Notes under the pieces: model-generated
Told to the model about the DNA's origin: nothing
Databases searched by the model: none
Seen by the model: only the letters and a program-made list of their open reading frames with translations
NCBI RefSeq assembly: GCF_000342045.1
Contig: NZ_AONQ01000028.1
Span: 1 to 54,370 of the forward strand
From: Paramagnetospirillum caucaseum
GTDB lineage: Bacteria; Pseudomonadota; Alphaproteobacteria; Rhodospirillales; Magnetospirillaceae
Direction: 5' to 3'
DNA: 54,370 nt
Position numbers and translations under genes: made by a program
Part shown: piece after piece, positions 5,593-47,122 of the stretch
Position numbering within the stretch: position 1 is the first letter of the stretch
How the letters are laid out: each line of letters begins with the position of its first letter

Positions 5593-5668
5593 GCCCAGGT
5601 AGCTCAGTTGGTAGAGCATGCGACTGAAAATCGCAGTGTCGCTGGTTCGATTCCGGCCCTGGGCACCA
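5593..5668 (+). tRNA. tRNA-Phe (GAA)
   Basis: A complete 76-base tRNA with encoded CCA. The acceptor stem GCCCAGG pairs with CCTGGGC, the D arm GCTC/GAGC, anticodon stem TGCGA/TCGCA, and T arm GCTGG/CCGGC around TTCGATT all pair. The anticodon loop CTGAAAA gives anticodon GAA. The 3' part from 5624 is also the left copy of the 89-base repeat that flanks the mobile region, so integration has kept this tRNA intact. Confidence 0.98.
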
Positions 5669-5712
5669 CTTTAAGCCCCTGAAAGGTAACGCCTTTCGGG
5701 GGCTTTCCATTT
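5624..5712 (+). repeat. Left attachment repeat (attL) in tRNA-Phe
   Basis: An 89-base segment from the anticodon loop of tRNA-Phe to just past its terminator. It recurs in direct orientation at 47034-47122 with one difference (A at 5682, G at 47092). Such tRNA-3'-end duplication is the normal footprint of a site-specific integrase. Confidence 0.9.
5673..5706 (+). terminator. Rho-independent terminator after tRNA-Phe
   Basis: AAGCCCC-t-GAAAGG (5673-5686) pairs with CCTTTC-g-GGGGCTT (5692-5705) across the five-base loop TAACG, followed by TTTCCATTTT. The copy at 47083-47116 has one change that keeps pairing as G-T. Confidence 0.8.
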
Positions 5713-5736
5713 TGAGGGGTATGGTAAATCCCCCTT

Positions 5737-5757
5737 CCAGGTAACGCCCCAGGTAAC
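5737..5757 (+). repeat. Two CCAGGTAAC direct repeats beside attL
   Basis: CCAGGTAAC occurs at 5737-5745 and 5749-5757, 12 bases apart, just inside the left att repeat; GGTAACGCC also occurs in the terminator loop. Short direct repeats next to an att core can be integrase arm sites. Function here is an inference. Confidence 0.3.
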
Positions 5758-5768
5758 AAGAGGCATTG

Positions 5769-5818
5769 TGTAGCGCGCCGGGCGATTTTGCACCGAATCA
5801 CGTCCGATTTTGCACTGA
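5769..5818 (-). promoter_or_regulatory. Prophage right end with two transposase-binding-like sites
   Basis: Two copies of CGATTTTGCACYGA lie at 5783-5796 and 5805-5818, exactly 22 bases apart. The reverse complement matches the motif at the other prophage end. Mu has adjacent 22-base MuA sites at its right end, so this spacing is what one would expect. The terminal TG at 5769-5770 is tentative. Confidence 0.65.
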
Positions 5819-5891
5819 AAATCCTCACCCCGACCCCACATTGTGAGGCCGGGGATACAGATTGATGCACGATGACAAAGAGCGGCAAGCC

Positions 5892-6698
5892 CTACGGCTT
5901 GGTGATCAGCACTTCGGTGGTGGCCTTGGCGTTGTTGCCGCCACCGGCGTAGTAGGTCGTTTCGACGGTTTCGATGGCGAAGGCGGCGAAGATTTCGCGG
6001 ACCTCCGGGGTATCGTTGAGAGACATGATGAACCGCCCCTTCAGCCCCGCCAGCACCTCGGCCAGACGTCCGAAATCATCTCGGGTGAAGAGGCCTTTGC
6101 CGTAGTAATCCTCGCACCGGTAATAGGGCGGATCGAGGTAGAACAGGGTGTCAGCCCGGTCCCAGCGGCGGATGCAGTCGGCCCAGGGCAGGCACTCGAT
6201 CACCGCGCCTGACAGGCGGGCATGGGCCGCCTCCAACAGGGATTCCAGCCGGGTGATGTTGAAGCGGGCACCGCTGCCGGGGTGGACGGCGAAGACGGCG
6301 TCCGGCTTGCCGGCATAGGACAGCCGCTGGAGATAGAGATAGCGCGCCGCCCGCTCCAGGTCGGTCAGGGTCTCCGGGTCGGTCTGGCGCAGTCGCTCGA
6401 ACTCGGCCCTGGCCGTGACGCGAAACCGCAGGAAGTCGATGAAATAGGCATAGTGACGCTGCAGGACCCGGAACAGGGTCACCACGTCGCGGCTGATGTC
6501 GTTCATCACCTCGGATTTCGGAGCCAGTGACCGGCGCAGAAAGACGCCGCCCATGCCCACGAAGGGCTCCACATAGGTGGCGTGGGGAATCGCCGCGATG
6601 CGGTCGATGATGGTGGCGGCCAGCAGGCGCTTGCCGCCGATATAGGCCGCCACGGGTTTGGCCGGTGAGACCGGTCGGAAGTCGGATTGATGGGTCAA
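5892..6698 (-). CDS. Phage DNA adenine methylase (Dam-type)
   Basis: Predicted N6-adenine methyltransferase that marks phage DNA and probably protects it from host restriction. The order is that of Dam/M.DpnII-type enzymes: AAYIGGKRLL at the N-terminus, motif I VEPFVGMGG, and catalytic DPPYY at about residues 189-193. It is 268 residues if read from TTG at 6698, which overlaps the com-like stop (TTGA). The frame is open upstream but without a better start. In Mu this place after com is held by mom, whose translation depends on Com; a similar dependence is likely here given the poor start codon. Target sequence unknown. Confidence 0.88.
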   Translation of the reverse strand: MTHQSDFRPVSPAKPVAAYIGGKRLLAATIIDRIAAIPHATYVEPFVGMGGVFLRRSLAPKSEVMNDISRDVVTLFRVLQRHYAYFIDFLRFRVTARAEFERLRQTDPETLTDLERAARYLYLQRLSYAGKPDAVFAVHPGSGARFNITRLESLLEAAHARLSGAVIECLPWADCIRRWDRADTLFYLDPPYYRCEDYYGKGLFTRDDFGRLAEVLAGLKGRFIMSLNDTPEVREIFAAFAIETVETTYYAGGGNNAKATTEVLITKP

Positions 6699-6904
6699 GG
6701 AACACGCTCCCGTTCGGGCGCTCCGGCGCATGTCGCGCAGTCGGTTGGACTGCCGGCGAGGCCGGCCCGGCGCTCGGGTAAGGGGCTCGTGGCCCTCTGG
6801 ATCTGGTTGACCGCGCCACAGCGCGGACACTTGATGGCAAGGCGGCCGGTGATGTCGGCCTCGGCCAGCTTGCGCCGGCATGTCCCGCAAAGGATGGACT
6901 CCAT
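6695..6904 (-). CDS. Com-like zinc-finger translational regulator
   Basis: A 69-residue protein with two CxxC pairs near the start (CGTC, then CPRCGAVN), the layout of Mu Com, a zinc protein that binds mom mRNA and opens its ribosome site. The N-terminal half matches the family best; the C-terminal half has a second cysteine pair, CATC, and is poorly conserved. It lies directly before the adenine methylase and overlaps its TTG start, the same arrangement as com-mom, so control of methylase translation is the natural inference. Confidence 0.8.
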   Translation of the reverse strand: MESILCGTCRRKLAEADITGRLAIKCPRCGAVNQIQRATSPLPERRAGLAGSPTDCATCAGAPERERVP

Positions 6905-7022
6905 GATGATGCATGCCCATTATCACCCCGCCCGTGCACCGGGTGCGGGGATGGCCAGATTGCGGCCGGGTCTGGTACATGCGGGCTATACTCCCGTGGC
7001 TCTGGGCGTTGGTGCGCCCATC

Positions 7023-7048
7023 CCCCCGCCGGTCGAGACCGGCGGGGG
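7023..7048. terminator. Strong hairpin downstream of the tail-fibre genes
   Basis: CCCCCGCCGGTC (7023-7034) and GACCGGCGGGGG (7037-7048) are perfect inverted arms with almost no loop. There is no T run on either side, so it may be a non-canonical terminator for the tail operon or a regulatory site before com. Confidence 0.45.
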
Positions 7049-7080
7049 AGTCTGTCTCTCAGGGGCGGCCCAGGCCGCCA

Positions 7081-7272
7081 TCAGGCCGCCACCTTCGGTA
7101 TGGCCACTTTGATGGTCTCAATCTTCTCCCTGATAGCGTCGAGGGCGGCGGAATTGCCGTCCAGCAGGTAGTCCAGCACGGCGGCGCGGAACTCGTGCTC
7201 GGGGATGTCGCGCAGGTACCGCTCGCGGCGCTGGACGCGATAGGACGGGCCGGTGGTCACGGTGTCGGACAT
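7081..7272 (-). CDS. Small protein after the tail fibre
   Basis: A 63-residue charged protein with no recognised domain: a basic N-terminal half (QRRERYLRDI) and a predicted helical C-terminal half ending in KVAIPKVAA. It starts 13 bases after the fibre gene, the position where Mu-like phages often carry a fibre assembly protein, but no sequence match supports that role. A TGACCTC-ATG context gives a fair ribosome site (GAGGTGACC reads oppositely, so support is modest). Treat as hypothetical. Confidence 0.65.
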   Translation of the reverse strand: MSDTVTTGPSYRVQRRERYLRDIPEHEFRAAVLDYLLDGNSAALDAIREKIETIKVAIPKVAA

Positions 7273-7285
7273 GGAGGTCACCTCA

Positions 7286-8578
7286 TCAGGACGCGATGGC
7301 GCCGAGCGCGCGGATCTGCTGCTCGACTGTGTTATGGGTCGTGATCTTGACCAGCGGCTGGGTGCCGGCGGGCAAGGTCGATAGGTCGAAGTCGGCCACC
7401 AGATTGTTGTAGGTGGTGCCGTAGACGTAGGCGTCCTGAAGCGAGAGCACGCCCTCGACCCAGCCGCCGGCGCCCGAGCCATCACGAGCCATGAACGCCT
7501 TGATGTCGGTGTTGAGGACGCCGGCTCCGGTGAAGCGGTGCAGCAGGGACAGGCGGCCATCGAGCGGCGCGGCGGGCACGGTGAACGGGCTGTCAACCAG
7601 CACCATGTTGGAGGGCGCGGTCAGCTCATAAGCCTTAAACTCGGCAATGGAGGGCGAGGTATTGCCCACTTCATTGTCGGTGATGTCGATGCGATAGTCC
7701 GAGACGGTGTAGGCGTGGGCTGGCACGTCCAATACGCGGGTCTCGCCGTTAGCCCAGCCGGTCTGGACCGGAAAGGTATAGACGGCCTGGTAGGCGGCGC
7801 CGTCCCAGGCCTTCAGGGTGAAGGTCTTCGGCCCGGAATTGCCTGCCGCTGGATGGGTCTGGATTGAGACCCGGCGGATATTTTTCGGACCCGTGAGCTG
7901 AATGCGGAACCATGGGCTCAACTCGGCAGCCTGCCACCAAGTCGCCCCATTACCGTCAAGCGCCTTGTCGGGAGTATAGGACGCACCGTAATTGCTGCTG
8001 GCGGTGACGGTCGCGCCGACGACGATGTCCGCGCTGTAACCGCTCTGATTGCCGTAGGTCTTAGTCACGGCGTCCCAGACGGCTCCGGACTTGGTCGGCA
8101 AATTGTCGGACGGGAAGGTATTGACCCGCGCCCAGTCGGCGAAGGTACCGGCGGCGATGCTGCCCGATATGGACAGCTGGAAGGCGTTGACCATCGCCAT
8201 ATCGCGGGCAATCTGGTCGACACCAGCGCGGTTGGTGAACAGCTCGGCCACCGAGATCCGCTTGTGGGCGCCCCCCACCGCGATGGCCAGCTCGTCGCCA
8301 TCGGCGGCTGCGCCGGCGTGGTCGGGCAGCGCCGGGATGCTGAAGGCGGCGGCAGCCACGGCCTCGGCGATCATGGCGGCGATGGCGTCGCGCACCTGAT
8401 GGAGATTGGCTTCGTCGGGCACACCGCCCCCAGCCACGATGACGGCCAGCAGTTCGTCGGTGACGTCGTTATTCCATCTGGCCGGATCACGGGACGGCGG
8501 GATGCTCCCGTCGGCGGTGCCGTCGGTGAACTTGCCGAGGTGCAGGTACACATCCGTCAAACTGAGGGGATAATCCAT
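7286..8578 (-). CDS. Tail fibre-like protein with discoidin (F5/8 type C) domain
   Basis: A 430-residue protein in the place of the Mu tail fibre. The first 130 residues resemble fibre N-termini that join the baseplate. Residues about 190-315 look like an F5/8 type C or galactose-binding beta-sandwich: SSNYGASYTPDKALDGNGATWW, split here only for description, then WFRIQL, and the YRIDITDN and IAEFKAYEL strands. Such domains bind carbohydrate, so cell-surface sugar recognition is likely. The C-terminal part has more beta structure. Only one fibre gene is present; no invertible alternative is visible. Confidence 0.75.
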   Translation of the reverse strand: MDYPLSLTDVYLHLGKFTDGTADGSIPPSRDPARWNNDVTDELLAVIVAGGGVPDEANLHQVRDAIAAMIAEAVAAAAFSIPALPDHAGAAADGDELAIAVGGAHKRISVAELFTNRAGVDQIARDMAMVNAFQLSISGSIAAGTFADWARVNTFPSDNLPTKSGAVWDAVTKTYGNQSGYSADIVVGATVTASSNYGASYTPDKALDGNGATWWQAAELSPWFRIQLTGPKNIRRVSIQTHPAAGNSGPKTFTLKAWDGAAYQAVYTFPVQTGWANGETRVLDVPAHAYTVSDYRIDITDNEVGNTSPSIAEFKAYELTAPSNMVLVDSPFTVPAAPLDGRLSLLHRFTGAGVLNTDIKAFMARDGSGAGGWVEGVLSLQDAYVYGTTYNNLVADFDLSTLPAGTQPLVKITTHNTVEQQIRALGAIAS

Positions 8579-8588
8579 CGTGTCCTCG

Positions 8589-9170
8589 CTACTCGAATAG
8601 GACCACGGTGCCCGCTGGAGCCAGGCGCCGGATCATGCAGACCAGGGGGTAGTTGCCCCAGGTGGTGAATTTCTCGCCGCAAAAGGACTGGCCGAAGCGA
8701 CGGGGACGGATGGTGCCGGTGGTGCAGCTGACCTTCCAGGTCCACTGCATGTCCTCGGCCCCGAAGGACTCGCCGCAGCGGCGCCGACCGGACCAGCGGG
8801 CGCGGTATTGGGTGATGGTGATGTCGTAGCCGAGCGCCTTGGCCAGCTCGACGAAATAGGCCGGCGACTGGCCGCCGGTGGCGATCATGCGGGCATGGGC
8901 GGCGGCACGGCGCTCGGCGATGGTCTCGGCCCCGCCGGTGCATTCGTCGGGCAGGCCGAGGACGGCCTCCCACTCGGCCAGCAGCAGCAAGGCGGTGGCG
9001 GGCGAGCGCTCGGCCAGGATCTGCTCGAAGGCGGCGTCGATCCGGGCGAACTCGGCGGATTGCGCCGCGACCATTTGTCCGCGCAGGCTGTTTGGATCGC
9101 GCGGCCATGCCCGACCGGGCGGCAACAGGGCCAGCATCAGGCGGGCATAGGTCTCCGTATCGCGGGCCAT
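8589..9170 (-). CDS. Mu gp48-like tail protein (DUF2313)
   Basis: A 193-residue baseplate-region protein of the DUF2313/YmfQ family, which lies between the gpJ-like baseplate protein and the fibre in Mu-like phages. The N-terminal LMLALLPPGRAWPRD stretch and the EWEAVLGLPDEC motif around residue 70 are diagnostic. The C-terminal half contains repeated CG-ESFG/ CGEKF segments. The start ATG overlaps the end of the gp47-like gene, so translation is coupled. Role in the outer baseplate is known for the family only by position. Confidence 0.85.
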   Translation of the reverse strand: MARDTETYARLMLALLPPGRAWPRDPNSLRGQMVAAQSAEFARIDAAFEQILAERSPATALLLLAEWEAVLGLPDECTGGAETIAERRAAAHARMIATGGQSPAYFVELAKALGYDITITQYRARWSGRRRCGESFGAEDMQWTWKVSCTTGTIRPRRFGQSFCGEKFTTWGNYPLVCMIRRLAPAGTVVLFE

Positions 9171-10237
9171 CAGGCGTAATCCTGGAAGGTGATGGAGTTG
9201 ACCAGGGCCATCTCGAAGGCACTCAGCACCGCATCGGCGGCCGGCGCCACGATGCGGTGCTTGATCTCGCCATCGGCGGCGCTGATCGCCGCCGACAGGC
9301 GCGACAGGGCACCCAGCTGGCCGGGCACCGATTCGGCGCGGTACCAGGAGCGGATCGCCACCTCGACCGTGGCGCGGACCTCCGAATTGTTGGGGTATAT
9401 CTGGATGACCAGATCATGGGCGACGGACGTGGGGGGCAGAACGATGCACTCGCTGCACACCGGGGCCACGTCGGGCCGGTCCATATAGGCCTGGACCGCC
9501 GCCACCTCGCCCTCGGTGGGGATCGGCCCGCCCTCGTTGTTGTCGCGGACCACCAGCACGGTGACAAAGCCGCGCCGGGGCGTCGCCTTGTAGACCCAGG
9601 CCCGCGTGATGCCGTCGCAGGCCAAGGCCCATGCCTCGTAATCATCGGCGGCGCCGCCATGGGGCGGGCGGCGCATGCGGGCCAGCAGCCGGGCCAGCAG
9701 GCTGGCGGGCTCCTCCTGATCCGAGCCGCCGGAGATCTCGCCGCTGATGCCCTTGGCGGCAATGCCGGCAATGGGCGAGGCTAGGGCCATGGACAGGCCG
9801 GCATCCTGATTGCCGGCGATTCCGGCGGACACCGCCGTGACGGCCACCTCCATGGTGGCGGTGCTGACCGTCACCTCGGCATCCGTCGTATAATCCCGGC
9901 CGGCGCAACGCAGCACGGTCCCGGCGCCGACCACCACGTTGGCGGCGCCGCTGCGGGTCAGTGTCACGGTGCCGGTGGCGGGCACCGCCGGTTTGCGGTG
10001 GATGCCCCAGTCGGCGGCGATGATCTCCAGCTGATCCGTATCGGCGCTGTTGGGCAGGATCTGATCGGCGATGCGCAGGCCGAAATCGTAGAGGCCGCTG
10101 GCCACCTCGGCGATGACATGGCCGCTGACATTGAGATCGCTGGCCGGCAGCCGGGCATCGGCACCGGGCAGCCGCGTCTCGATGGTGGCGATGTAGCGCT
10201 CCAGCAGCGCCTTGTAGGTGGGGCGGCTAAGCGGCAT
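9170..10237 (-). CDS. Baseplate J-like protein (Mu gp47)
   Basis: A 355-residue baseplate wedge protein of the gpJ/gp47 family. Typical features include the N-terminal RPTYKALLERYIATIETRLP helix, LADQ..-like helix before a beta-rich centre (TGTVTLTRSGAANVVVGAGT), the SGGSDQEEPASLLARLLARM signature near residue 195, and a C-terminal region with GEIKHRIVAPAAD. In Mu-type contractile tails it links the central hub to the fibres. The ATG at 10237 lies 11 bases inside the upstream gp46-like gene, and the stop base is shared with the next gene. Confidence 0.92.
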   Translation of the reverse strand: MPLSRPTYKALLERYIATIETRLPGADARLPASDLNVSGHVIAEVASGLYDFGLRIADQILPNSADTDQLEIIAADWGIHRKPAVPATGTVTLTRSGAANVVVGAGTVLRCAGRDYTTDAEVTVSTATMEVAVTAVSAGIAGNQDAGLSMALASPIAGIAAKGISGEISGGSDQEEPASLLARLLARMRRPPHGGAADDYEAWALACDGITRAWVYKATPRRGFVTVLVVRDNNEGGPIPTEGEVAAVQAYMDRPDVAPVCSECIVLPPTSVAHDLVIQIYPNNSEVRATVEVAIRSWYRAESVPGQLGALSRLSAAISAADGEIKHRIVAPAADAVLSAFEMALVNSITFQDYA

Positions 10238-10700
10238 GTCGGGTCCAGTAATAATCGTAGATGCGGCTCCAGCGGGTGCCGTCGCGGCGGATGATTTCCA
10301 CGGACAGGCCCAGCAGGCCGGGGGCGGTGATTTCGGCGGTAACGGTGACCTGGCGGGCGTATTTGCGCCGCACCATCCAGGCCAGGGCGGTCTCGGCGTA
10401 GGATCTGGCCCGCGCCACCACGCTGGCCAACTGCTTCTCGCGATGCAGCAGCCACAGCCAGGAGCCGATCTCGTCCGACTCGGGGTCTTCATCCTGCTGG
10501 CGATGGGTCAGGCACCAGCCCCGGCGGTCGCCGCTGTTGTCGGGAATCGCGTCGTCGTCACGGGCGCGGCGGTCGGTGAACAGGCTGATGGTCACCGCCG
10601 TCTCCAGCCCGTCGGTCATGACGATGGCGCCGTCCTCGCCCAGGCCCAGGTCACCGGACAGGGTGGCGGGGTCGAAGGTGATCAGCCGGTCAGTCGCCAT
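10227..10700 (-). CDS. Mu gp46-like baseplate protein
   Basis: A 157-residue member of the phage GP46 family, a baseplate component comparable in position to the gp25-like protein of other contractile tails. The segment RRGWCLTHRQQDEDPESDEIGS, in part, and the SWLWLLHREKQL helix are characteristic. It overlaps its neighbours at both ends by about 11 bases, as usual for this compact tail module. No signal or membrane segment. Confidence 0.88.
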   Translation of the reverse strand: MATDRLITFDPATLSGDLGLGEDGAIVMTDGLETAVTISLFTDRRARDDDAIPDNSGDRRGWCLTHRQQDEDPESDEIGSWLWLLHREKQLASVVARARSYAETALAWMVRRKYARQVTVTAEITAPGLLGLSVEIIRRDGTRWSRIYDYYWTRHAA

Positions 10701-11268
10701 GGGGCACCTCCGCCGGGGACACCGCCACCGTCGCCGACGAGACCTCGCCGATGACGTAGTTTGTCACGGTGTAGGAGGCGCCCAGGGACGCCCAGCACCA
10801 GCCATGGCCGTTGCAATCCACGTCCAGGTACTTGGTCGCATGGATGTGCACCCGCTCGCCGGCCAGGCGCAGGGTCTTGGCGGATGCGACGGTGATGTCG
10901 AGCGGGCTGGTGACGGCGATGCCAGTGCGGGTCAGATGGACCTTCTGGCCCTTATCGTCATGGATGGCCACTTCGCCATATTCCAGGCTGATCGTGTACC
11001 GGCGGTCGTAAAGGCGGACCACCACACCGTTAGAGCGCAGCCCCGCCAGAAACAGCATTAACGCCTCGGCGCCGGGATGGGGCCGGGTGGAGATGCCGTA
11101 ATCCAGGACGTAATCCCGTTCGCCCAATACCTCGTCGTCGATGCCCTTGATGCCAGCCCGCATGAGGCCGCCATCGGCCTCCAACGCCGCCAGCACGCCG
11201 CGCCCGACCATCATGGCCAAGCGGTCGCGCAGCGGCTGGAGAGCGGCGGCGATCAGGCGTCTCACCAT
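10690..11268 (-). CDS. Mu gp45-like baseplate spike protein
   Basis: A 192-residue homologue of Mu gp45 (V), the trimeric membrane-piercing spike under the tail tube. The N-terminus (RRLIAAALQPLRDRL), the GERDYVLDYGISTRPHPGAEAL segment around residues 50-70, and a repetitive beta-rich second half with VHIHATKYLDVD fit the family, whose C-terminal beta-helix often binds metal through histidines. The ATG at 11268 overlaps the end of the gpP-like gene. Identification relies on motif and position. Confidence 0.87.
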   Translation of the reverse strand: MVRRLIAAALQPLRDRLAMMVGRGVLAALEADGGLMRAGIKGIDDEVLGERDYVLDYGISTRPHPGAEALMLFLAGLRSNGVVVRLYDRRYTISLEYGEVAIHDDKGQKVHLTRTGIAVTSPLDITVASAKTLRLAGERVHIHATKYLDVDCNGHGWCWASLGASYTVTNYVIGEVSSATVAVSPAEVPHGD

Positions 11269-12311
11269 GTCACCGCCCCCTGCTCTTTTTGCGCCAGCAG
11301 GTCGAAGGCGCCGGGGCCGACCAGGGACAGCCTGGCGATGGTGCCACCCTGCTCGTCCAGGGTGCGCTCGACGCTGGCGATCAGGCGGTCGCCTTCGATC
11401 TGGAGGCTGGGCGCGGACACCGGAACCAGCCTGTTGGGGCGCCACAGCCCGGTGGCGTGGCGCCAGCCCTGGACGGTGATCTCCACCGTCTCGGCCTTGG
11501 CCTTGGCGATCTTGGCATCCCATGCCGCCTGCTGCGCGGCGGTAATGCCGTCGGCTAGATCGTCGGCCATGCGGGCGGTGGGACGGTAACGGCGGATGCC
11601 GGCATCATGGGCGGTGCCCTTGGTGCCGGCATTGGCGTTGGCGTCGCCCCACAGATTGGTCTGGGAATAGACGGTGTAATCGCGATGGCGACCGATGCGG
11701 CTGTCCTTGGCTTTCCCCGCCTTGATGTTGACGCCCTCGACCAGTCGGGTGGAGATGCGCCCCGGCTGGCCCGGCCCCAGCACCAGCACACCGCGGCCAT
11801 CGGAATAGGGAAGGATGCCGCGCGCCGCACACAGGCGCTGGATGGCGGCCAGGGACTTCTCCCCCTTCTGCAGGGTGAATCCGGCAAAGGCCTTGCCCGG
11901 ATCGGCGCCGGGCGCCACCTCGACGGCGATCCCAAAGGGGGCGCAGATCTCGCGGACGATGTCGGCCAGCCCCCGGTCCTTCCATTCGCCGGGAGCAAGC
12001 ATGGTGGAGCAATCCACCAGATCGGCGGTGGCGTCGCGCCCCGTCACCCCGATGGTGTGGGTGCCGGCGGAGATCTCGCGCGCCACCTCGTCCACATGGC
12101 CCTTGATGACGGTGTCGTCGCCGATCCGCAGCTCGACCGCGTCCTCCTTGTGGATAGGACGCTGGGCCGCGCCCGGCCACTTTTCGGTCAGCGCAATGGT
12201 GAATCCGCCGGCGATGGCGTCCATGCCGGTGCGGATGGAGTTGATGGCGGTCCAGCCGCCGTACTCCACCCCAGCCACCCGCAGAGTGACCATGTCGCGC
12301 GGGTCAATCAT
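11262..12311 (-). CDS. Tail hub protein gpP-like (Mu gp44)
   Basis: A 349-residue late-control/hub protein of the gpP family, forming the central baseplate hub of contractile tails. The N-terminal VTLRVAGVEYGGWTAINSIRT, the GHVDEVAREISAGTHTIGVTGRDATADLVDC stretch (family hallmark GRD.T.DLVD), and LAAIQRLCAARGILPYSDGRG are typical. The real ATG at 12311 lies just inside the end of the upstream gene; the same frame is open further but in non-conserved sequence. Overlaps on both sides indicate coupling. Confidence 0.9.
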   Translation of the reverse strand: MIDPRDMVTLRVAGVEYGGWTAINSIRTGMDAIAGGFTIALTEKWPGAAQRPIHKEDAVELRIGDDTVIKGHVDEVAREISAGTHTIGVTGRDATADLVDCSTMLAPGEWKDRGLADIVREICAPFGIAVEVAPGADPGKAFAGFTLQKGEKSLAAIQRLCAARGILPYSDGRGVLVLGPGQPGRISTRLVEGVNIKAGKAKDSRIGRHRDYTVYSQTNLWGDANANAGTKGTAHDAGIRRYRPTARMADDLADGITAAQQAAWDAKIAKAKAETVEITVQGWRHATGLWRPNRLVPVSAPSLQIEGDRLIASVERTLDEQGGTIARLSLVGPGAFDLLAQKEQGAVTW

Positions 12312-39487: not shown

Positions 39488-40116
39488 GCCGGCTCCTCCT
39501 CGCGCCACACCACCTTGCGGAGGTTGGGGTCGAACAGTTGGTGGGAGCGCTGGATCTGCGGCGGCAGCGGGCCGGTGCTTTTCGAGGGCAGCAGGCGGTA
39601 GCCGGTGGGGATGCGGTTGTCGGCCGGGCGGTCGGTGACCATCACGTAGCCGGCCCGGACCAGCCAGCGGACGAAATGGGTGGCATCCACCCGGTTGATG
39701 GCCACTTCCTCGGTGGAACCCAGCCTGACCAGATCGTCCAGGGTGAATTGGCCGAGGATGCGGATGGTGCGCCAGATGGCCCGGCGGCCCGCCCCCATCT
39801 CGACACGGCTGCCGTCCCTGCGGACGCGCGGCGTCTTGGCGCCGTCGTCCTGGGCCAGAAGGTAAGCGCCATCCGCCTCGGTCAGGATGGCGGCGGCCGT
39901 TAGACGGGCGAGATAATCCTTGACCGTTTTACGGTCGGCGGACAGGCGCGGCGCACGGGCTTCGGCGAAATACCCCATGATCCGGTCAAGGGTTATGCCC
40001 TGGCCGCCGGACAGGGCGCGCAATGCAATCCACACCGCGTCCTGGCCCGTGACGGCCCGGCCGGTGGCGATCTTGTCGGCCGGCTGGCGGCCGGGGTGGC
40101 GGGGATGGGCGGCCAT
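39478..40116 (-). CDS. Putative winged-helix protein after MuB
   Basis: A 212-residue protein starting at ATG 40116, overlapping the MuB stop by 4 bases. It looks like two winged-helix units: QDAVWIALRALSGGQGITLD with KTVKDYLARLTAAAILTEAD, and RTIRILGQFTLDDLVRLGST with FVRWLVRAGYVMVTDRPADN. Such proteins follow MuB in alphaproteobacterial Mu-like phages. The function is unknown; a regulatory or replication role is plausible from its place. Confidence 0.7.
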   Translation of the reverse strand: MAAHPRHPGRQPADKIATGRAVTGQDAVWIALRALSGGQGITLDRIMGYFAEARAPRLSADRKTVKDYLARLTAAAILTEADGAYLLAQDDGAKTPRVRRDGSRVEMGAGRRAIWRTIRILGQFTLDDLVRLGSTEEVAINRVDATHFVRWLVRAGYVMVTDRPADNRIPTGYRLLPSKSTGPLPPQIQRSHQLFDPNLRKVVWREEEPACL

Positions 40117-40871
40117 CAGGAGTGCCTCTTGCGGGCGACCACCGCGCCGGTGTTGAACTTGCGCTCGCCCCACAGCTTGCGGTCCACCTTGTCCCAGCCA
40201 TTGCGCAGGCCCTCTTCCTGGATATCGTCCAGGTTGGCGGCGACGCGGCGCGTGCAGCCGGTGACCTCGGCCAGCAGATGCATCAGCAGATCGTCGGCGA
40301 TCTCCACCTTGTCGCAATACAGGCGGGTCAGGTGGCGGGCGTCGTCCAGGGTGCAGGGCAGTGCCGGAGCCGGGCGGGCCATGCGGTTGTGCAGCCGCTC
40401 GTACCGCTCCAGCTTGACCGGCAGATCCTCCTCGCCGATCAGGATGATGGGGGTGTTGGCGATCTCGTAGAGGTCGCGGATGATCTCGATATAGCCGCGA
40501 TCCACCACATAGTCGGCCTCGTCCACGAACAGCACCATGCGCCCCGTCATCAGCTTCTCGGCGGCGATCTCGATCAGGTCGTAGACCGGCCGGGAACGGT
40601 AATTGACGCCGGGGGCCAGTTCGCCCAGCAGCGCATCCATGAACTTCTTTTTGGTCCAGGTGGAGCGCGCCTCCACATAGACCGCGCGGTCATCCAGCTT
40701 GTTGGCGGCGTATGTGGTGGCGATGGATTTGCCGTAGCCGGAAAAGCCGTAGAAGCAGCCGATGCCGGGCAGATGGGGCTTGCGGTCGCGCAGGCGGCCG
40801 ACCAGTTCCTGCATGATGGCCACGTTGGTCAGCGGCGCGACGGTGTTGACGATGGGCGTGATCACGGTCAT
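40116..40871 (-). CDS. Transposition ATPase MuB-like
   Basis: A 251-residue AAA+ ATPase that in Mu binds target DNA, activates the transposase and protects the phage from self-insertion. The Walker A motif is GFSGYGKS at residues 42-49 and Walker B is MVLFVDEADYV near residue 118-128. It is shorter than Mu B (312) and lacks the N-terminal HTH part, as in many alphaproteobacterial relatives. The real start is ATG 40871 with a GGGGAA ribosome site; the frame is open further upstream. It lies just after MuA. Confidence 0.9.
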   Translation of the reverse strand: MTVITPIVNTVAPLTNVAIMQELVGRLRDRKPHLPGIGCFYGFSGYGKSIATTYAANKLDDRAVYVEARSTWTKKKFMDALLGELAPGVNYRSRPVYDLIEIAAEKLMTGRMVLFVDEADYVVDRGYIEIIRDLYEIANTPIILIGEEDLPVKLERYERLHNRMARPAPALPCTLDDARHLTRLYCDKVEIADDLLMHLLAEVTGCTRRVAANLDDIQEEGLRNGWDKVDRKLWGERKFNTGAVVARKRHS

Positions 40872-40900
40872 AAGATTCCCCTGTGTGTTGATGTTTTCTA

Positions 40901-40930
40901 AGCCGCCCGCCGCTCCAACGGCGGGCGGTT
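40901..40930. terminator. Hairpin between transposase and ATPase genes
   Basis: CCGCCCGCCG (40903-40912) pairs with CGGCGGGCGG (40919-40928) around CTCCAA, extended by G-T and A-T pairs. On the gene strand it is not followed by a T run, so it may be an attenuator or processing site instead of a full terminator. Confidence 0.5.
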
Positions 40931-40936
40931 TGCTTA

Positions 40937-43081
40937 TCAGCCGGCCCGGTCGGCGTTGACCTCCTCCCGATCGAAACTCGCGGCCATTTCGGTCTGGGCG
41001 CGCCATTCCGCCGACAGCGGGTAGCGCTGGTGCCAGCGGCGCTCATCGTCGGAAACGGGGGTGCCGGTGGCGGTGGCGGCGTCGAGGTCGCGCCAGCGCT
41101 GGAAGCGGCCAGCGGCGGTTTCGGGGATGGCGGCGATGGTGGCGGCGGGAATTTGGGTGGCGGTCATCTCCAGCACCAGATGCTGGTGGATGGCGGCGAC
41201 GTTGTCGGGCAGCACCGGGGTGGCGGTGACGTCGATCATCTGGTGGCCGCGCTCGGCGTGGATCTCGGCCACATGGGCCTCGGCCCGCTGGATGCGGCCC
41301 TGGTGGCGCCTGTCCAGGGCGGCGTCCAGATAGGAGCGTGGCACCACCGAGCGCTTGTTGGCCTCGAATCCCGCCTCGCAGATCAGGCGGCCGTCGAGAT
41401 CGCGGACATAGACCTTGGAGGCGTCGTGGACGTCGTAGCCCACCAGCACCTCGCAATCGTGCCAGTCCTTGAGATCGCGGTTGAAATAGCTGCTGCCCAG
41501 CACGGAGACGGTGCCGCGCAGCACCTTGCGGGTCTCGTAGGGCCGGGTCAGGTCGGCGGCCTCGGCCTGTGACACCCGCAGGGGGTTCCAGCCGCGTTGA
41601 ATGGCGGCGGTCCAGGCCTCCATGGGGGTCTGGTGACGGCGCCGCCCGGTCACCGGGTCGGTAATCTTGGGCAGGCCGCGATGGGGGGTGTTGTTGTACT
41701 CGGTCACCATCGCCTCGGCCCAGGCCAGGTACTCGTTCCAGGCCATCAGGTGACGCGAGGCGCCAAACGCCTTGATGTCGGCGCGGGTGATCTTGTGCAC
41801 CTTCTGCCCGGCCTGGCGGTCCATGTCCCGGCCCATATAGGTGGGCAGGCGACGCGCGCCCTTGATCCAGATGCTTTGGTGCGAGCGCTCCACATAGCCG
41901 CCGGCCTGGGGGTTGTTGGGCAGGCGGTTGAGCTTGGTGGTGCGGATGCGGGCCAGCAGGCCGGTGCGCCCGTCATCCATCAGCTGGTTGTTGTAGCCCG
42001 AGCCGTTGTCCACGTACCACACCGCCGGGATGCACCAGCGGGTGACCATGTAGACGATGGCCTCGGTCACCCCCAGGGCGTTTTCGGCCAGCCCCGCCGA
42101 CCAGCCGACGCACAGGCGGGTGGCCAGATCGATGATGGTGGTCATCTCGGGCCGGAAGGGGCGACCGTGGCGGGGGTGGGTGACCTCGGCATCCAGGCAA
42201 TGGCCGTCGCTTTGCACGATGTCGAGGGGATCGAGGCCGGACAGGTCGCGCCGGACATAGGGCTGCAGCGACTTGAGCTCTTTCGGACCCAAACGGCCCC
42301 GGTTGCGCTCGATGGTCGAGACCTTGTCCAGCCAGCGCCGCGCCTGGCCGTAGCTGGGCGGCGCGATACCCATGGGCAGGGCACCCGGCTTGGCCAGATC
42401 GTTTTCGACGATGTCGCGCAGCGAGCGCTTGGTGGGTGTGTTGTAAAGCGACAGCAAGGCGGGCGCCCAGGCGGGGACGCTCATGTCCGGCTCCGGCACC
42501 TTGGGCGCCAGGGCGACGGCCTTGCCGCCGGCCGCCGTGCGCTCGGTGTGCCAGTTGATCAGGGTCCGCAGGCAGATGGTGCGGCTGCCCGCCGTGCCGG
42601 CCTTGGCGTTGGCCACCGGCAGCAGCCGGGCGATCTCGGGCGGCAGATTGCCCCCCTTGGCCAGCCGCTCCACCTGTTGGCGCGCCTGGGTGATACCGCC
42701 GGCGACGGGGATCAGCCGGTCCACATAGGCCAGGATGGCGGCCCGCGCATCCATGATGGCGCGCTGGCTGTTGGTCAGGTGGGTGGTGTCGCCGATGAGT
42801 TCCACCGGGGCCAGACTCGTGGCGGCGGCGGCCACTACCGGCGCCGGGAGGAGAGATGCGGCGACATGGTGGGCGTGGCCGTGCCGCAGGATCTCGCGGG
42901 CCGCGTCGTCCAGGGCGGGCAGGATGGCGGCTACCCGGTATTCCCAGGCGTGGGTGGCATCGGCGCGGCGGCGGCGCGGCCATCCCTCGGTGCCGGCCCG
43001 CTTGTTGACGCCCTGGGGAGAGGCGGGAAATTTGGGCAGGCCCAGCCCGGCCAATTCGGCGGCGGTCATCCAGTCGCTCAT
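40937..43081 (-). CDS. Mu A-like transposase (DDE)
   Basis: A 714-residue transposase of the MuA family, which cuts and joins the prophage ends and replicates by transposition. The catalytic triad is D292 in QSDGHCLD, D358 in WYVDNGSGY and E398 in AGGYVERSHQSIW, in the correct order and spacing. An N-terminal Mu-type DNA-binding region (DWMTAAELAGLGLPKFPASP) would bind the end sites. The C-terminus is long and should contact MuB. It overlaps the preceding gene by 4 bases and looks intact. Confidence 0.95.
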   Translation of the reverse strand: MSDWMTAAELAGLGLPKFPASPQGVNKRAGTEGWPRRRRADATHAWEYRVAAILPALDDAAREILRHGHAHHVAASLLPAPVVAAAATSLAPVELIGDTTHLTNSQRAIMDARAAILAYVDRLIPVAGGITQARQQVERLAKGGNLPPEIARLLPVANAKAGTAGSRTICLRTLINWHTERTAAGGKAVALAPKVPEPDMSVPAWAPALLSLYNTPTKRSLRDIVENDLAKPGALPMGIAPPSYGQARRWLDKVSTIERNRGRLGPKELKSLQPYVRRDLSGLDPLDIVQSDGHCLDAEVTHPRHGRPFRPEMTTIIDLATRLCVGWSAGLAENALGVTEAIVYMVTRWCIPAVWYVDNGSGYNNQLMDDGRTGLLARIRTTKLNRLPNNPQAGGYVERSHQSIWIKGARRLPTYMGRDMDRQAGQKVHKITRADIKAFGASRHLMAWNEYLAWAEAMVTEYNNTPHRGLPKITDPVTGRRRHQTPMEAWTAAIQRGWNPLRVSQAEAADLTRPYETRKVLRGTVSVLGSSYFNRDLKDWHDCEVLVGYDVHDASKVYVRDLDGRLICEAGFEANKRSVVPRSYLDAALDRRHQGRIQRAEAHVAEIHAERGHQMIDVTATPVLPDNVAAIHQHLVLEMTATQIPAATIAAIPETAAGRFQRWRDLDAATATGTPVSDDERRWHQRYPLSAEWRAQTEMAASFDREEVNADRAG

Positions 43082-43536
43082 CGTCCCGCCCCCCGTGCCC
43101 GCCGCTCCTCGACCGCCGCCAGTTGCTCCAGCTCGCGGGCCTTCTCGCGGATCTGGGTGGCGCGGATCAGCGAGACATAGCGGTCATCGACCACCGCCCA
43201 GCCGAAGGGCTCGGCCATCACCTGCAGCAGCCGGACATCGTCGGTGACATGGGCCAGGGCCATGATCCGCACCCCGTTGATGACGGTGTCGGCGCGGGCC
43301 TCGCTGGCGTAGTTGTCCAGCATGTTTTCCGAGATGGTCTCGCCCAGATAGGCGCTCATGCGTTGGGCGACATCGGCGCGGCTCATGCCGCAATCCTTGA
43401 GCGTCAGGCTGACCGCCTTGGCCAGCAGGGTCGCCAGCGAGGTGGATTTGAGCGCCACGTCCGGGTAGCGGCGGGTGATCGGCGGCGGCTGCCAGTCCAG
43501 CAGGGGCGTGGTCGGGTCCTGGCGGCGGCGGGTCAT
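43078..43536 (-). CDS. Small DNA-binding-like early protein
   Basis: A 152-residue protein from ATG 43536, one base after the ner-like stop. A helical centre (SLTLKDCGMSRADVAQRMSA, then YLGETISENMLDNYASEARA) resembles an HTH or phage regulatory fold, and RIMALAHVTDDVRLLQVMAE follows. Proteins of this kind lie between Ner and MuA in alphaproteobacterial Mu-like phages. DNA binding is an inference. A GGGGGA ribosome site is present. Confidence 0.65.
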   Translation of the reverse strand: MTRRRQDPTTPLLDWQPPPITRRYPDVALKSTSLATLLAKAVSLTLKDCGMSRADVAQRMSAYLGETISENMLDNYASEARADTVINGVRIMALAHVTDDVRLLQVMAEPFGWAVVDDRYVSLIRATQIREKARELEQLAAVEERRARGAGR

Positions 43537-43537
43537 G

Positions 43538-43861
43538 TCAGCGTCCCCCCGCACTTTCGACCTTGTCGCACCTTGGCTGCGTGCTACGCTGAATGGTGCG
43601 AGTCCTGGTCAGCCGGACCCCGCCCGCCCCGAAGCGCTCGGGAAATAGCGTCTGGGGCGTCAAGCCGATGGCCTCGGCGATGGCCGGTTCGAGATGAATG
43701 TTGGGCGCCATCAGGGCGGCGCTCATGGCCTGATGGGTTACTCCGGCCCTGAGCGCCAACGCACGCAGGCTGGTGCCCCGGATACGGAGCTGGCCGCAAA
43801 TCCACACCCGCCTGATGGCGGGGTTTTTTGGGACGTCAGTAGTTGCAATGGCATTTGACAT
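43538..43861 (-). CDS. Ner-like negative regulator of early transcription
   Basis: A 107-residue protein of the Ner/Nlp HTH family, which in Mu represses the repressor and early promoters after infection. The segment GTSLRALALRAGVTHQAMSA (about 30-50), and then IAEAIGLTPQTLFPERFG, is the typical Ner sequence. From ATG 43861 the gene would start only two bases after a predicted transcription start, so the mRNA may be nearly leaderless. GTG at the RRVWI position is another possible start. Its promoter overlaps a likely operator. Confidence 0.82.
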   Translation of the reverse strand: MSNAIATTDVPKNPAIRRVWICGQLRIRGTSLRALALRAGVTHQAMSAALMAPNIHLEPAIAEAIGLTPQTLFPERFGAGGVRLTRTRTIQRSTQPRCDKVESAGGR

Positions 43862-43869
43862 GGCAAACG

Positions 43870-43898
43870 TTATAAACCCCAAACGGGGTTATTTGCAA
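43870..43898 (-). promoter_or_regulatory. Likely early promoter (Pe) with operator
   Basis: On the minus strand TTGCAA (-35, complement of 43893-43898) and TTATAA (-10, 43870-43875) are 17 bases apart. The spacer holds an inverted repeat AACCCC-gttt-GGGGTT (43875-43890), a good repressor or Ner site. It would drive ner and the transposition genes. Confidence 0.65.
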
Positions 43899-43920
43899 CG
43901 GCGAAAAACACCGTTCGGCA

Positions 43921-44054
43921 GTTTCAGCGGCTGGGCGGTGCCTTGCGTGGCCTGGATGTCTAAAACACCTTTATTATTCAATCAGTTGAATGCCGCTGAA
44001 ACGGTTTCAGCGGGCCTGTGCCGGAGTTTCAGCCGTGGCTATGTCCGCTGAAAC
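43921..44054. promoter_or_regulatory. Operator cluster between ner and repressor
   Basis: GTTTCAGCGG-type half-sites occur five times: 43921-43930; a perfect palindrome at 43993-44013 (arms CCGCTGAAAC around one G); 44026-44035 (GTTTCAGCCG); and 44045-44054, inside the repressor start. This layout is typical of phage operators controlled by the divergent repressor. A TATTAT at 43972-43977 could be the -10 of the repressor promoter, but no good -35 is seen. Confidence 0.7.
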
Positions 44055-44484
44055 CAAAGGCCAGACCGTTGGGGAGCGCATCCGAATGGTGCGTGGAGAT
44101 GTGCGGCAGCCGGACTTTGCAACCCGTTTGGGCGTCGACAAGAACACCATCGGCCGCTACGAGCGGGACGAGCGACAACCGGATGCGGAGTTTTTGGCCA
44201 AGCTTTGCGCCCTGGGCTATAGCGGCCATTGGCTGGTCACCGGGGAAGGGCCGCAGATGGCCAGCGCCCCCTTGCTGGAGCCAAAGATCGAAAGCGTCAA
44301 TGCGGGCGCCTTGGCCGGGGCCATCACGGCAGTCGAAGAATTGTTGCGGGCACGTCAGGCAACCTTACCCCCGGAAAAGAAGGGGGAAATGATCGCTCTT
44401 GTATACAAACAATTGACGGACGTTGTTGCAAAAGGCCAAATACCCGGTGAAATCCTCAAGGACTTATTGAATCAAGCGAGTTGA
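44041..44484 (+). CDS. Prophage repressor (HTH, c-like)
   Basis: A 147-residue repressor that should keep the prophage quiet. The N-terminal HTH GERIRMVRGDVRQPDFATRL, then DKNTIGRYERDERQPDAEFL, is the cI/XRE type, not the unusual Mu c type. A helical tail (LLRARQATLPPEKKGEMIAL) probably makes dimers. I chose ATG 44041; an in-frame ATG at 43990 would put the palindromic operator in the coding region and has no ribosome site. Downstream genes are coupled (TGATG). Confidence 0.85.
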   Translation: MSAETKGQTVGERIRMVRGDVRQPDFATRLGVDKNTIGRYERDERQPDAEFLAKLCALGYSGHWLVTGEGPQMASAPLLEPKIESVNAGALAGAITAVEELLRARQATLPPEKKGEMIALVYKQLTDVVAKGQIPGEILKDLLNQAS

Positions 44485-44846
44485 TGGCGATGGGTGGGAA
44501 AGATTGGACGACCGAGGCGCGGAGATTGCTGGCATCGGCTGCCGGCAGCAACGACAACAGGCAGATTTCCCAGGCAGCCCCCACCATCATCTTTCAGGCC
44601 CCGGTCACCGTCCTTAACCTGACCATGGAATCCGGCCTGGATGCCCAGCGGAAGACCTTGATTCACCGGCTGGAGGGCTTCCTGGCTGGCGAAGGCGAGA
44701 AGGTTGAAGAGGCGTTCCGAGGGGAATTGAAGCGGGCGTTCGGTACGGATGCGGTAGCCGACCTGCAGGATACTCAATTGGCCGATTTAGTGGCTGGTTT
44801 CAACACCATGCTCCGCTTCGCACGCCTGTTATCGGGCGCGCCATAG
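44484..44846 (+). CDS. Hypothetical protein in repressor operon
   Basis: A 120-residue protein (KDWTTEARRLLASAAGSNDN; PTIIFQAPVTVLNLTMESGL; HRLEGFLAGEGEKVEEAFRG). The ATG shares a base with the repressor stop. Being expressed with the repressor in the lysogen, it may act on the host or on superinfecting phages, but no family is recognised. Confidence 0.65.
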   Translation: MAMGGKDWTTEARRLLASAAGSNDNRQISQAAPTIIFQAPVTVLNLTMESGLDAQRKTLIHRLEGFLAGEGEKVEEAFRGELKRAFGTDAVADLQDTQLADLVAGFNTMLRFARLLSGAP

Positions 44847-44863
44847 CGTTAGAGGGGGTTACC

Positions 44864-45373
44864 ATGCGCCTTGCCGTCATCACCATTCTAACGCTGCTGT
44901 CCATGGGATCGGTGGCTCGGGCCGACGCGGTAAATGACAGACTTACCGCCCAAGTCTCCCAGTATCTGGTAGCCAATCCCACCGCCATCAAACAGGTGCA
45001 GACTCCCGCCGACGTGGTGCGGACCTGGCGCGACATGGTGATGGTCGGGGATATGATTCAGCTGGCCGCTGACAACGCACTGCCCGCGCCACTCAAGCCG
45101 CAGATCGCGGGTCGCCTTGATGCCGCCAACATCTCCATGCGAATCGCCGCCGGCCAAGAGGATCGGCAGATCGCCTTACTGTCCGATATAGCCCTGCTGT
45201 TCGCCAAGACAGCCTTGGATTTCACCAAGGGGAAGGTGCCCTACACCACCTTCGGCGACGCCAGGGCGCTGCTCACCGGTGGCGGGGCCAAGGCACTCGC
45301 CAGGGATCTGGAAGGGAAGTACTCGAAGCCAGGCGCCATCATTCCGCCCGATCCCGTCATCGAAAAGTGGTGA
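44864..45373 (+). CDS. Exported hypothetical protein in repressor operon
   Basis: A 169-residue protein with a Sec signal peptide (RLAVITILTLLSMGSVARAD, cleavage after ARA at about residue 20). The mature part is helical (QYLVANPTAIKQVQTPADVV; WRDMVMVGDMIQLAADNALP). It is read from 18 bases after the previous gene with a GAGGGGG ribosome site. A periplasmic protein made in the lysogen suggests lysogenic conversion or superinfection exclusion, which is an inference. Confidence 0.7.
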   Translation: MRLAVITILTLLSMGSVARADAVNDRLTAQVSQYLVANPTAIKQVQTPADVVRTWRDMVMVGDMIQLAADNALPAPLKPQIAGRLDAANISMRIAAGQEDRQIALLSDIALLFAKTALDFTKGKVPYTTFGDARALLTGGGAKALARDLEGKYSKPGAIIPPDPVIEKW

Positions 45374-45402
45374 GCCATTTCCGCCTCGTCGGAACCCCTA
45401 TC

Positions 45403-45489
45403 CGGTGCAAAATCGACCGGCAATTTGACCATTCCTGACCATTCTTGCCCGATACTCGGTGCAAAACCCCCATCGCCTCAAACCCGCAT
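45403..45489 (+). promoter_or_regulatory. Prophage left end with transposase-binding-like sites
   Basis: CGGTGCAAAATCG (45403-45415) and TCGGTGCAAAAC (45456-45467) are in inverted orientation to the two sites at the other end. The 54-base spacing between them recalls the split L sites of Mu. A five-base CATTG at 45490-45494 matches the base run just outside the other end; the exact boundary is tentative. Confidence 0.6.
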
Positions 45490-45627
45490 CATTGCTTGGT
45501 TTGGTGCTGATCCCCCAATTTCATCGCCAGTGCAGAAACGGTCACCTCCCCACACATTGCCATACCTGTTGCGCTGTCAGGGTGTCGCGCTCCAAGCTGC
45601 AATTTTCATATATCAGGCTGCCATCGG

Positions 45628-46212
45628 ATGCGCATTCCGCCACCGCCTCCCAGAGGAAAGACATTCGCCATCCATACGGCTGGTCACATGCTGGGCAAGC
45701 TGGCGTGGGAAATTTCCAACCTGGATCGTGCATCCAAAGGGGACAGTTTTTTTGACGTCCGCTACACGGCCTTTAATTGCGCGGTTACCGCATGGCATAT
45801 CAGCGACTGGGCGTGGGAAGAATTGGACGAGGAGGTCAAAGGAGACCTCTCTGCCCGCGCGGGAGACCGGATTGCGGATGTGGGGACGTTTCAAGCATTT
45901 CTTCGCCGCCAATGCCGAGCCTTGCATCTGTGCCGACAGATTGCAACCGGCTCCAAGCATAAAGTCGTGCAACGCGGAAACGACGAGAATGTCACCGCCG
46001 ATCTCGGTTGGGAGGTCGTCGATGAGGCGACGTGTGAAGGTACCTGTGACAGCCCGCTGCGGACCTATCGCCAGCATGCGGTGATCCATGACGGCTCAAA
46101 TATGCTGGAAACGATTGATGTGTTCAGGGACGCCTTCCGTTACTGGGAAAGGGAATTGGCCTCATGGTTCTTGATCGAGGACCGAGTTATCTTCGGTGAT
46201 GGCGAAGACTGA
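45628..46212 (+). CDS. Hypothetical protein of the tRNA-Phe element
   Basis: A 194-residue protein outside the prophage end but inside the att repeats. It has FAIHTAGHMLGKLAWEISNL, AFNCAVTAWHISDWAWEELD and a charged C-terminal half ending with WFLIEDRVIFGDGED. No family recognised. The first 20 residues (RIPPPPPRGKTFA) are poorly coding-like, and an ATG at 45688 is an alternative start. It might be a remnant of the element that first entered tRNA-Phe. Confidence 0.6.
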   Translation: MRIPPPPPRGKTFAIHTAGHMLGKLAWEISNLDRASKGDSFFDVRYTAFNCAVTAWHISDWAWEELDEEVKGDLSARAGDRIADVGTFQAFLRRQCRALHLCRQIATGSKHKVVQRGNDENVTADLGWEVVDEATCEGTCDSPLRTYRQHAVIHDGSNMLETIDVFRDAFRYWERELASWFLIEDRVIFGDGED

Positions 46213-46264
46213 TACCGGAAGCCGTGGTTCGTGCTTCCACCCTGTGGGTGCGACCGAGGGCCGT

Positions 46265-46293
46265 TTGGACTGTCACGCAAGCTGTGGTAGGGT
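46265..46293 (+). promoter_or_regulatory. Possible promoter of mntA-hepT
   Basis: TTGGAC (46265-46270) and TAGGGT (46288-46293) are 17 bases apart, about 25 bases before the antitoxin ATG. The -10 match is weak. Confidence 0.4.
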
Positions 46294-46318
46294 CAAATGA
46301 TCCTGCCCCGGAAAGACC

Positions 46319-46633
46319 ATGCATCACCTCATTGATCAGCACCGCGCCGAAATCGCCACCATGTGCCGCCGCTATGGCGTGCGGCGGCTGGAGGTTTTCG
46401 GCTCGGCGGCGAGGGGAGTGGATTTTGATCCGGTGGAGAGCGATGCCGATTTCCTGGTGGCGTTCGATCCGGCAGTATCCAACCTTTCGCCGCTGGAGCA
46501 ATATTTCGGCCTTGCCGAGGGGCTTGCTGGCTTGCTGGGGCGGCCCGTGGATCTTGTCGAGGCCGGAGCGTTGCGCAACCCGTTCTTGCTCGCCTCCGTC
46601 AACCAGACGCGCGAGGTGGTCTATGCGTCGTGA
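46319..46633 (+). CDS. mntA: MntA-type nucleotidyltransferase antitoxin
   Basis: A 104-residue minimal nucleotidyltransferase. The family motif GS...DxD is here as GSAARGVDFDPVESDADFLV, with the aspartates at the end for metal binding. In the MntA/HepT (type VII) system the antitoxin AMPylates the toxin HepT and so neutralises it. It overlaps the hepT start by 11 bases. GS is separated from DxD by 12 residues, slightly more than the common 10, but such spacing varies. Confidence 0.88.
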   Translation: MHHLIDQHRAEIATMCRRYGVRRLEVFGSAARGVDFDPVESDADFLVAFDPAVSNLSPLEQYFGLAEGLAGLLGRPVDLVEAGALRNPFLLASVNQTREVVYAS

Positions 46634-46970
46634 CGCACGAGCCTATCTCTGGGACATCCAGCAGGCGGCCGATGCGATCATGCGTTTCCTGGACGGGTTC
46701 GACCCAACGACCTTTGCCGAGAACGAATTGGTTTACTCGGCGGTGGAGCGGAAGTTCGAGATTATCGGCGAAGCCTTGGGTCAATTGGCGAAGGTCGATC
46801 CCGATTTGGCCCTGCGTGTCCCAGACATGCGCGACATTATCGCCTTCCGCAATGTCCTGATCCACGGCTATGCCGGAATCGAACATCGCCGCGTGTGGGA
46901 TATTGCCCAAAGCGCGCTGCCGGGGCTGCGAACGGTCGTAGCCGAACTGCTTGGAGATCTTGGCAGGTAG
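46623..46970 (+). CDS. hepT: HepT-type HEPN toxin
   Basis: A 115-residue HEPN RNase toxin. The catalytic motif RX4HXY is present as RNVLIHGY near residue 85, with DMRDIIAFRNVLIHGYAGIE (in part) around it. Known HepT toxins cleave RNA, for example tRNA, unless AMPylated by MntA. It starts at ATG 46623 inside the antitoxin gene. The gene pair sits on the right remnant of the tRNA-Phe element, where a toxin-antitoxin pair would prevent its loss. Confidence 0.88.
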   Translation: MRRDARAYLWDIQQAADAIMRFLDGFDPTTFAENELVYSAVERKFEIIGEALGQLAKVDPDLALRVPDMRDIIAFRNVLIHGYAGIEHRRVWDIAQSALPGLRTVVAELLGDLGR

Positions 46971-47033
46971 TGCGCCGTATATAGAGCGTTGTTACCTCGC
47001 CGCATCAGCATATTGATTTATCGCCCGGCAGGT

Positions 47034-47122
47034 CTGAAAATCGCAGTGTCGCTGGTTCGATTCCGGCCCTGGGCACCACTTTAAGCCCCTGGAAGGTAAC
47101 GCCTTTCGGGGGCTTTCCATTT
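47034..47122 (+). repeat. Right attachment repeat (attR)
   Basis: Direct copy of 5624-5712 with one change at 47092. It has the 3' part of tRNA-Phe from the anticodon loop on and the terminator hairpin, but no 5' tRNA half, so it is not a working tRNA gene. Confidence 0.92.

Follow-up and report, generated by a model that had tools for sequence, protein, structure and literature searches.

The 54,370-bp contig NZ_AONQ01000028.1 of Paramagnetospirillum caucaseum (hereafter, the window) was analyzed in its entirety, and is contig C28 of a 4.86-Mb draft assembly comprising 236 contigs. It carries a Mu/D3112-like transposable prophage that lies within a small unit lacking an integrase, bounded by two direct repeats at a tRNA-Phe gene, and this unit is likely what is left of a larger island. 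The tRNA-Phe (GAA), called by ARAGORN, is the integration target (5593..5668, + strand). The left repeat (5624..5712, +), on the core side of the left attachment site (attL), starts inside this gene and comprises the last 45 nt of the tRNA, its terminator, and a few further bases. The right repeat (47034..47122, +), on the core side of the right attachment site (attR), consists of the 3′ half of tRNA-Phe and the terminator; being a 3′ half only, it was not called as a tRNA by ARAGORN. The copies are 89 nt long and differ at a single position (A at 5682, G at 47092), where most of the relatives listed have A, as in the left copy. No other pair of long repeats in the window was nearly as similar, and the assembly contains no further copies.

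A transposable prophage inside an older unit

The prophage spans 39,786 bp (5769..45554, −), starting 57 nt past the left repeat and ending 1,480 nt short of the right one, in agreement with the original prediction of a Mu-like phage nested between the repeats with its ends about 57 bases and 1.5 kb inside them. Its length and ends were fixed by two observations. Specifically, matching to two relatives from other sources (L151, titled a Phaeospirillum metagenome-assembled genome, and L153, from IMG/VR) ceased at the transposase end, position 45554, and a perfect 5-nt target-site duplication, CATTG, lies directly outside both ends (5764..5768 and 45555..45559, both +). The termini read TGTAGC at 5769 (+) and TGTGGGG at 45554 (−), giving TG...CA ends. 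Near the right end are a MuA-like DDE transposase of 714 amino acids (40937..43081, −; Pfam PF09299 and PF02316, Mu-transpos_C and HTH_Tnp_Mu_1), its MuB-like AAA ATPase partner (40116..41006, −; Pfam PF13401; phrog_296, DNA transposition protein), and a repressor-like helix-turn-helix protein identified by Pfam and PHROGs (43990..44484, +).

The MuA homologue aligned over 98% of its length and, together with MuB, the Mu-type portal, the TG...CA ends, and the 5-nt duplication, resembles what is found in D3112/JBD30-like transposable phages of Pseudomonas. The prophage differs from them in its host and in its transposase, which in tblastn against 148 phage records was below 60% identical to all and at best 39.3% identical. 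We take the phage transposase hits to belong to the D3112 group. With no sign of deletion beside either end, the prophage arrived by one ordinary transposition into a pre-existing unit.

That unit, namely the DNA between the repeats minus the prophage and one copy of the duplication, is 1,530 bp long and encodes three proteins. The first open reading frame (ORF) is hypothetical, with 194 amino acids and an uncertain start (45628..46212, +); it had no family match in Pfam, PHROGs, NCBIfam, or PADLOC and no PDB, plasmid, or viral match, and its single-sequence fold (mean pLDDT, the predicted local distance difference test, of 38.8) was not interpretable. It is followed by a MntA-like nucleotidyltransferase, a putative antitoxin (46319..46633, +; Pfam PF01909; PADLOC PDC-S09), and an overlapping HepT-like RNase, a putative toxin (46623..46970, +; Pfam PF01934). 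Both Pfam domains scored above cut-off (4.7e-8 and 8.5e-20, respectively) and the genes overlap, as in the type VII MntA/HepT toxin-antitoxin (TA) system; unlike curated MntA/HepT, the pair scored 36.7 and 35.8 bits in the NCBIfam equivalog models against a cut-off of 60, and we therefore name the proteins MntA/HepT-like only. A PDB search with the HepT-like protein was without match at E 0.01.

The gene content thus matches what had been proposed from the sequence, a hypothetical gene plus MntA/HepT with no integrase. Across the whole genome, 36 matches to the integrase domain PF00589 were recovered, none of them on this contig, and none was identified as a resident cognate integrase for the unit; a Pfam search of its three ORFs likewise gave neither an integrase nor a relaxase. 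Among 60 relatives searched, 58 of which had tRNA-Phe matches, none carried the unit without the prophage, and an empty site of the exact unit was likewise not found. Outside the repeat, substantial matches to the unit were confined to mntA/hepT-like DNA in two of the 60 genomes (71-72%). Two observations that would speak against the nested-element reading, the repeat pair in relatives lacking the prophage or TA pair and an integrase inside the region, were looked for and neither was found.

tRNA-Phe islands of relatives and their left-end arm-type sites

In this bacterial family, tRNA-Phe is an integration hotspot. A second tRNA-Phe 3′ half with the same start base was present further on in five relatives (G009, G010, G026, G038, and G018), and the crossover boundary of these islands and of that in G003 is the same as in the window. 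Where both ends were on one stretch, these islands ranged from ~8 kb to 59 kb, as opposed to the 1,530 bp of the window's unit. Unlike the window, three of the relatives have a tyrosine-recombinase gene: those of G003 and G018, close to tRNA-Phe, are 74% alike, and G026 has an 8.4-kb island with GGGGTAACA twin repeats and an integrase gene adjoining the right (far) repeat. In NCBIfam, the G003 and G026 proteins matched recombinase models with scores below the cut-offs.

The window's attL contains CCAGGTAAC twice, in a twin direct repeat of the form CCAGGTAAC-(3 nt)-CCAGGTAACAA (5737..5759, +) that starts at +113 from the crossover boundary. In a first scan of 39 distinct places, with a threshold of at least 8 of 9 bases matching, 16 places had such twins and 15 of those 16 started at +108 to +116; random sequence reached this score in 115 of 3,000 trials. 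A second scan used one full tRNA-Phe per genome from 31 genomes (the window included), with the permitted spacing now 11-12 nt, a limit set in light of the first scan. Here, 12 of the 31 genomes had a 9-nt twin direct repeat starting at +110 to +116, against 14 of 3,003 control bins over positions −400 to +600. The motif itself varied by genome, being common to the pairs G007/G008, G009/G010, G017/G038, and G018/G023. Examples of tRNA-Phe loci with twins are L008, L015, L018, L022, L030, and L094, and among the relatives with islands G026, G009, G010, G018, and G038 have twins at the offset seen in the window. From their place and spacing, the twins appear to be integrase arm sites. Because several relatives' tRNA-Phe islands share the crossover boundary and the window's attL has its putative arm sites at the distance typical of the family, the repeats can be taken to derive from integration, upholding the earlier interpretation of an 89-base repeat with one mismatch, ending in tRNA-Phe, as an integration footprint.

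The right end of the unit

The right end of the unit differs from those of the relatives' islands. Twins with 11-nt spacing were present 115-151 nt before the right boundary in all five islands scanned (G009, G010, G026, G038, and G018), each queried with its own left motif. The window's right end had no twins within 400 nt, even when up to 4 of 16 bases could mismatch; searched without a motif, its best pair agreed at 5 of 9 bases. The end of the HepT-like gene and the boundary are 63 nt apart. A single inverted site, AGGTAACAA, with a putative arm-like function, is at −45 (46989..46997, −), and an inverted copy of the island's own motif was located at −47 in G009 and G010 and at −113 in G026, while none was seen at the right ends of G018 and G038. 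In the 4.86-Mb genome AGGTAACAA occurs three times, with two of these occurrences at the two inner edges of the unit, and the reversed pattern occurs six times. The evidential weight rests on the shared places, not on the shared 9-mer.

These data bear on whether the unit is, as the original prediction had it, a tiny mobile element of ~1.6 kb. Such an element would consist of attachment sites and a TA pair, would rely for movement on an integrase supplied in trans from another locus, and would now hold a 40-kb prophage. Both core repeats and the attL twins are indeed intact, left in place by the phage insertion, and two of the 36 integrase-domain matches elsewhere in the genome are 39-41% identical to the G026 integrase. 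However, the distal twins are missing at the right end, and the sole other genomic AGGTAACAA (C22:39152) is on a contig that lacks integrase matches. Further, no second copy of the unit was found in the 60 relatives, nor did its hypothetical ORF have a plasmid or viral match or its TA pair a match in plasmid DNA. We thus regard this explanation as unlikely; the missing twins fit deletion from a larger island instead. A link between the unit and a trans-acting integrase via the arm motif was rejected, since the C22 occurrence had, by eye, no tRNA 3′ end or integrase nearby and C22 had no PF00589 match.

Occurrences of arm-type patterns were also noted away from recognizable islands. One AGGTAACAA is present at position 13217 of L161 (G024), downstream of an ordinary tRNA-Phe and with long ORFs that look nitrogenase-like (by eye) beyond; it is perhaps the scar of a similar island. 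In viral contigs, the arm pattern matched 96 stretches. Among the 80 of these that were examined, most of the contexts listed resembled coding repeats and one (L204) had a nearby G026-type integrase (36%), while a tRNA scan of 60 of the 80 gave one tRNA-Thr. Overall, viral contigs were of little use as a source of relatives of the arm pattern.

Probable rearrangement beyond the right repeat

A 52-nt junction (47123..47174) separates the right repeat from DNA that is located elsewhere in congeners. This right flank (47175..54370) encodes a nucleoside-recognition 'Gate' protein, an LrgB-like protein, and others, and DNA from 47175 onward had matches in 51 of the 60 relatives. In all 11 congeners whose region was retrieved, the neighbour of the flank is a block found in the present genome at C31:39384-44052. 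It had no match to the 20 fetched tRNA-Phe-type stretches of 16 congeners, which covered some kilobases downstream, and in the three genomes with one large chromosome the tRNA-Phe and right-flank places are far apart (in G009, at 3.63 Mb and 1.43 Mb). The left flank, in contrast, has kept its place next to tRNA-Phe across kilobases in 11 of 16 congeners. Because the right flank sits elsewhere in congeners while the left flank stays, a breakpoint appears to lie just past the right repeat and the chromosome to have been rearranged beyond it, unless the contig is misjoined.

Such a misjoin, at the 89-nt repeat, would have given the hepT-repeat side a flank that does not belong to it. A repeat of this length is a plausible place for an error in a draft of 236 contigs, and the right flank has this neighbour in no other genome. 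Against a misjoin, the two repeat copies differ by one base and there are no others in the assembly. Moreover, the C31 block that partners the flank in congeners is itself interrupted at the corresponding position. Past the break come ~1.4 kb resembling G009 DNA 8.4-9.8 kb beyond the right repeat of that genome, in the expected orientation; but this DNA type is accessory and recurs in other contexts in G005 and G013. On balance, an assembly error seems improbable. Because the ~1.4-kb DNA recurs in other contexts and the sequence immediately past the right repeat of G009 had no counterpart among the matches listed for this genome, C31 was rejected as a clean reciprocal inversion junction and serves as weak support at most. 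A single conserved 'native' downstream neighbour of tRNA-Phe was sought without success, as the 20 fetched loci share little downstream.

Alternatively, the right repeat would not stem from integration at all, but would be a tRNA-Phe fragment placed beside the right flank by rearrangement or duplication. The position of the flank away from tRNA-Phe in 11 of 11 congeners means that rearrangement did happen at this junction. Nevertheless, the right repeat and the island fragments of G009, G010, G026, G038, and G018 share their start base (CTGAAAATC), and an inverted arm-like site is located just inside the repeat, making this origin very unlikely.

In G010, the left end of the island (L101) is at 27.7 kb on the minus strand and the right end (L103) at 1.10 Mb on the plus strand, ~1.07 Mb apart. 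They are 97% and 93% alike to those of G009 over 316 bp and 3,002 bp, respectively, and our reading is that an inversion through the island split it. Given these halves in opposite orientation and the foreign right flank of the window, we tentatively raise the possibility that tRNA-Phe serves as a common docking port for islands in these alphaproteobacteria. It would have one twin-arm geometry (twins one helical turn apart, at ~+113 and ~−115 to −151) with a motif that changes with each unrelated-looking island, and the island boundaries would recur as breakpoints of chromosomal inversions. The results point to tRNA-Phe as a busy site of both integration and rearrangement in this family.

A probable decayed island remnant at tRNA-Phe

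Taken together, the unit is likely a decayed island remnant, with attL intact, the attR arm truncated, the integrase lost, and a TA pair left behind, that was later struck by the phage. Initially, a tyrosine-integrase island with GGTAAC-type arm sites would have entered tRNA-Phe, leaving the tRNA 3′ half and terminator at both ends. A deletion from the right, suggested by what is absent, would then have removed most of the island. Lost with it would be the integrase and the distal arm sites on the right, and what stayed behind would be a stub of 1,530 bp containing the hypothetical ORF and the MntA/HepT-like pair. The Mu/D3112-like phage transposed into this stub 5 nt past the putative left arm sites, and CATTG was duplicated in the process. 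The rearrangement beyond the right repeat may have come before or after these steps. Since attL is complete but attR is without its distal arm, the stub is probably a cis-mobilizable-type remnant that can no longer move.

Several points weigh against this history. No intact version of the island was found in the 60 relatives, so that the deletion is one we infer. The offset and spacing of the left twins were fixed post hoc, after inspection of the first data, and because genomes pair up by motif the 12 of 31 represent fewer than 12 independent events. At the right end, an inverted site near −45 was seen in only three of six islands, two of the five ends scanned (G009 and G010) are 93% alike, and a sixth fragment (L033, from G001), left out of the right-end count, differs in having twins at −21/−10; the G003 fragment (L104) is likewise outside that count. 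Finally, between stretches this short a shared 9-mer such as that at the two edges of the unit is not rare in itself: one turned up in 72 of 5,000 shuffles and in 403 of 4,957 pairs of randomly chosen windows.

Both the prophage and the island remnant are known kinds of mobile DNA. In the definition given in PMC5704250, a cis-mobilizable element (CIME) is a decayed integrative and conjugative or integrative and mobilizable element (ICE/IME) that retains attL and attR. Like a CIME, the unit is tRNA-flanked, has retained both attachment cores, and has no identified integration or transfer genes of its own. Unlike one, it has a transposable prophage inside, and its right end, with the distal twins absent while those of attL are present, may fall short of retained attachment sites. 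By its sequence features, the unit would work or have descended like a CIME, and it is not classed as one here because the attR arm looks cut. Additionally, integrase-less islands between direct repeats have been described for Dehalococcoides (PMC3146451).

A puzzling integrase-less element thereby becomes a readable history, in which the leftover still displays the recognition sites that were kept and those seemingly lost. More broadly, a simple check for whether a tRNA-bound element is alive or only a stump is to look beyond the repeats for arm sites, expected at set distances from both boundaries.

Other features of the prophage

The remaining recognized prophage genes are on the minus strand. 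They include the terminase large subunit (25698..27350; phrog_38), the Mu-type portal protein (24145..25797; Pfam PF06074), a MuF-like head protein (22923..24155; Pfam PF04233), the major head protein (20028..21011; phrog_1005), and the tail tape-measure protein (13497..15422; phrog_973). The last gene at the distal end encodes a D12-class adenine DNA methyltransferase (5892..6980; Pfam PF02086). The MuF-like protein additionally has a C-terminal PBECR2 domain (Pfam PF18810), a nuclease-type domain of the phage Barnase/EndoU/Colicin-like kind. Finally, a 33-nt repeat is present within the prophage at 39083-39157 in three exact overlapping copies with a 21-nt period.

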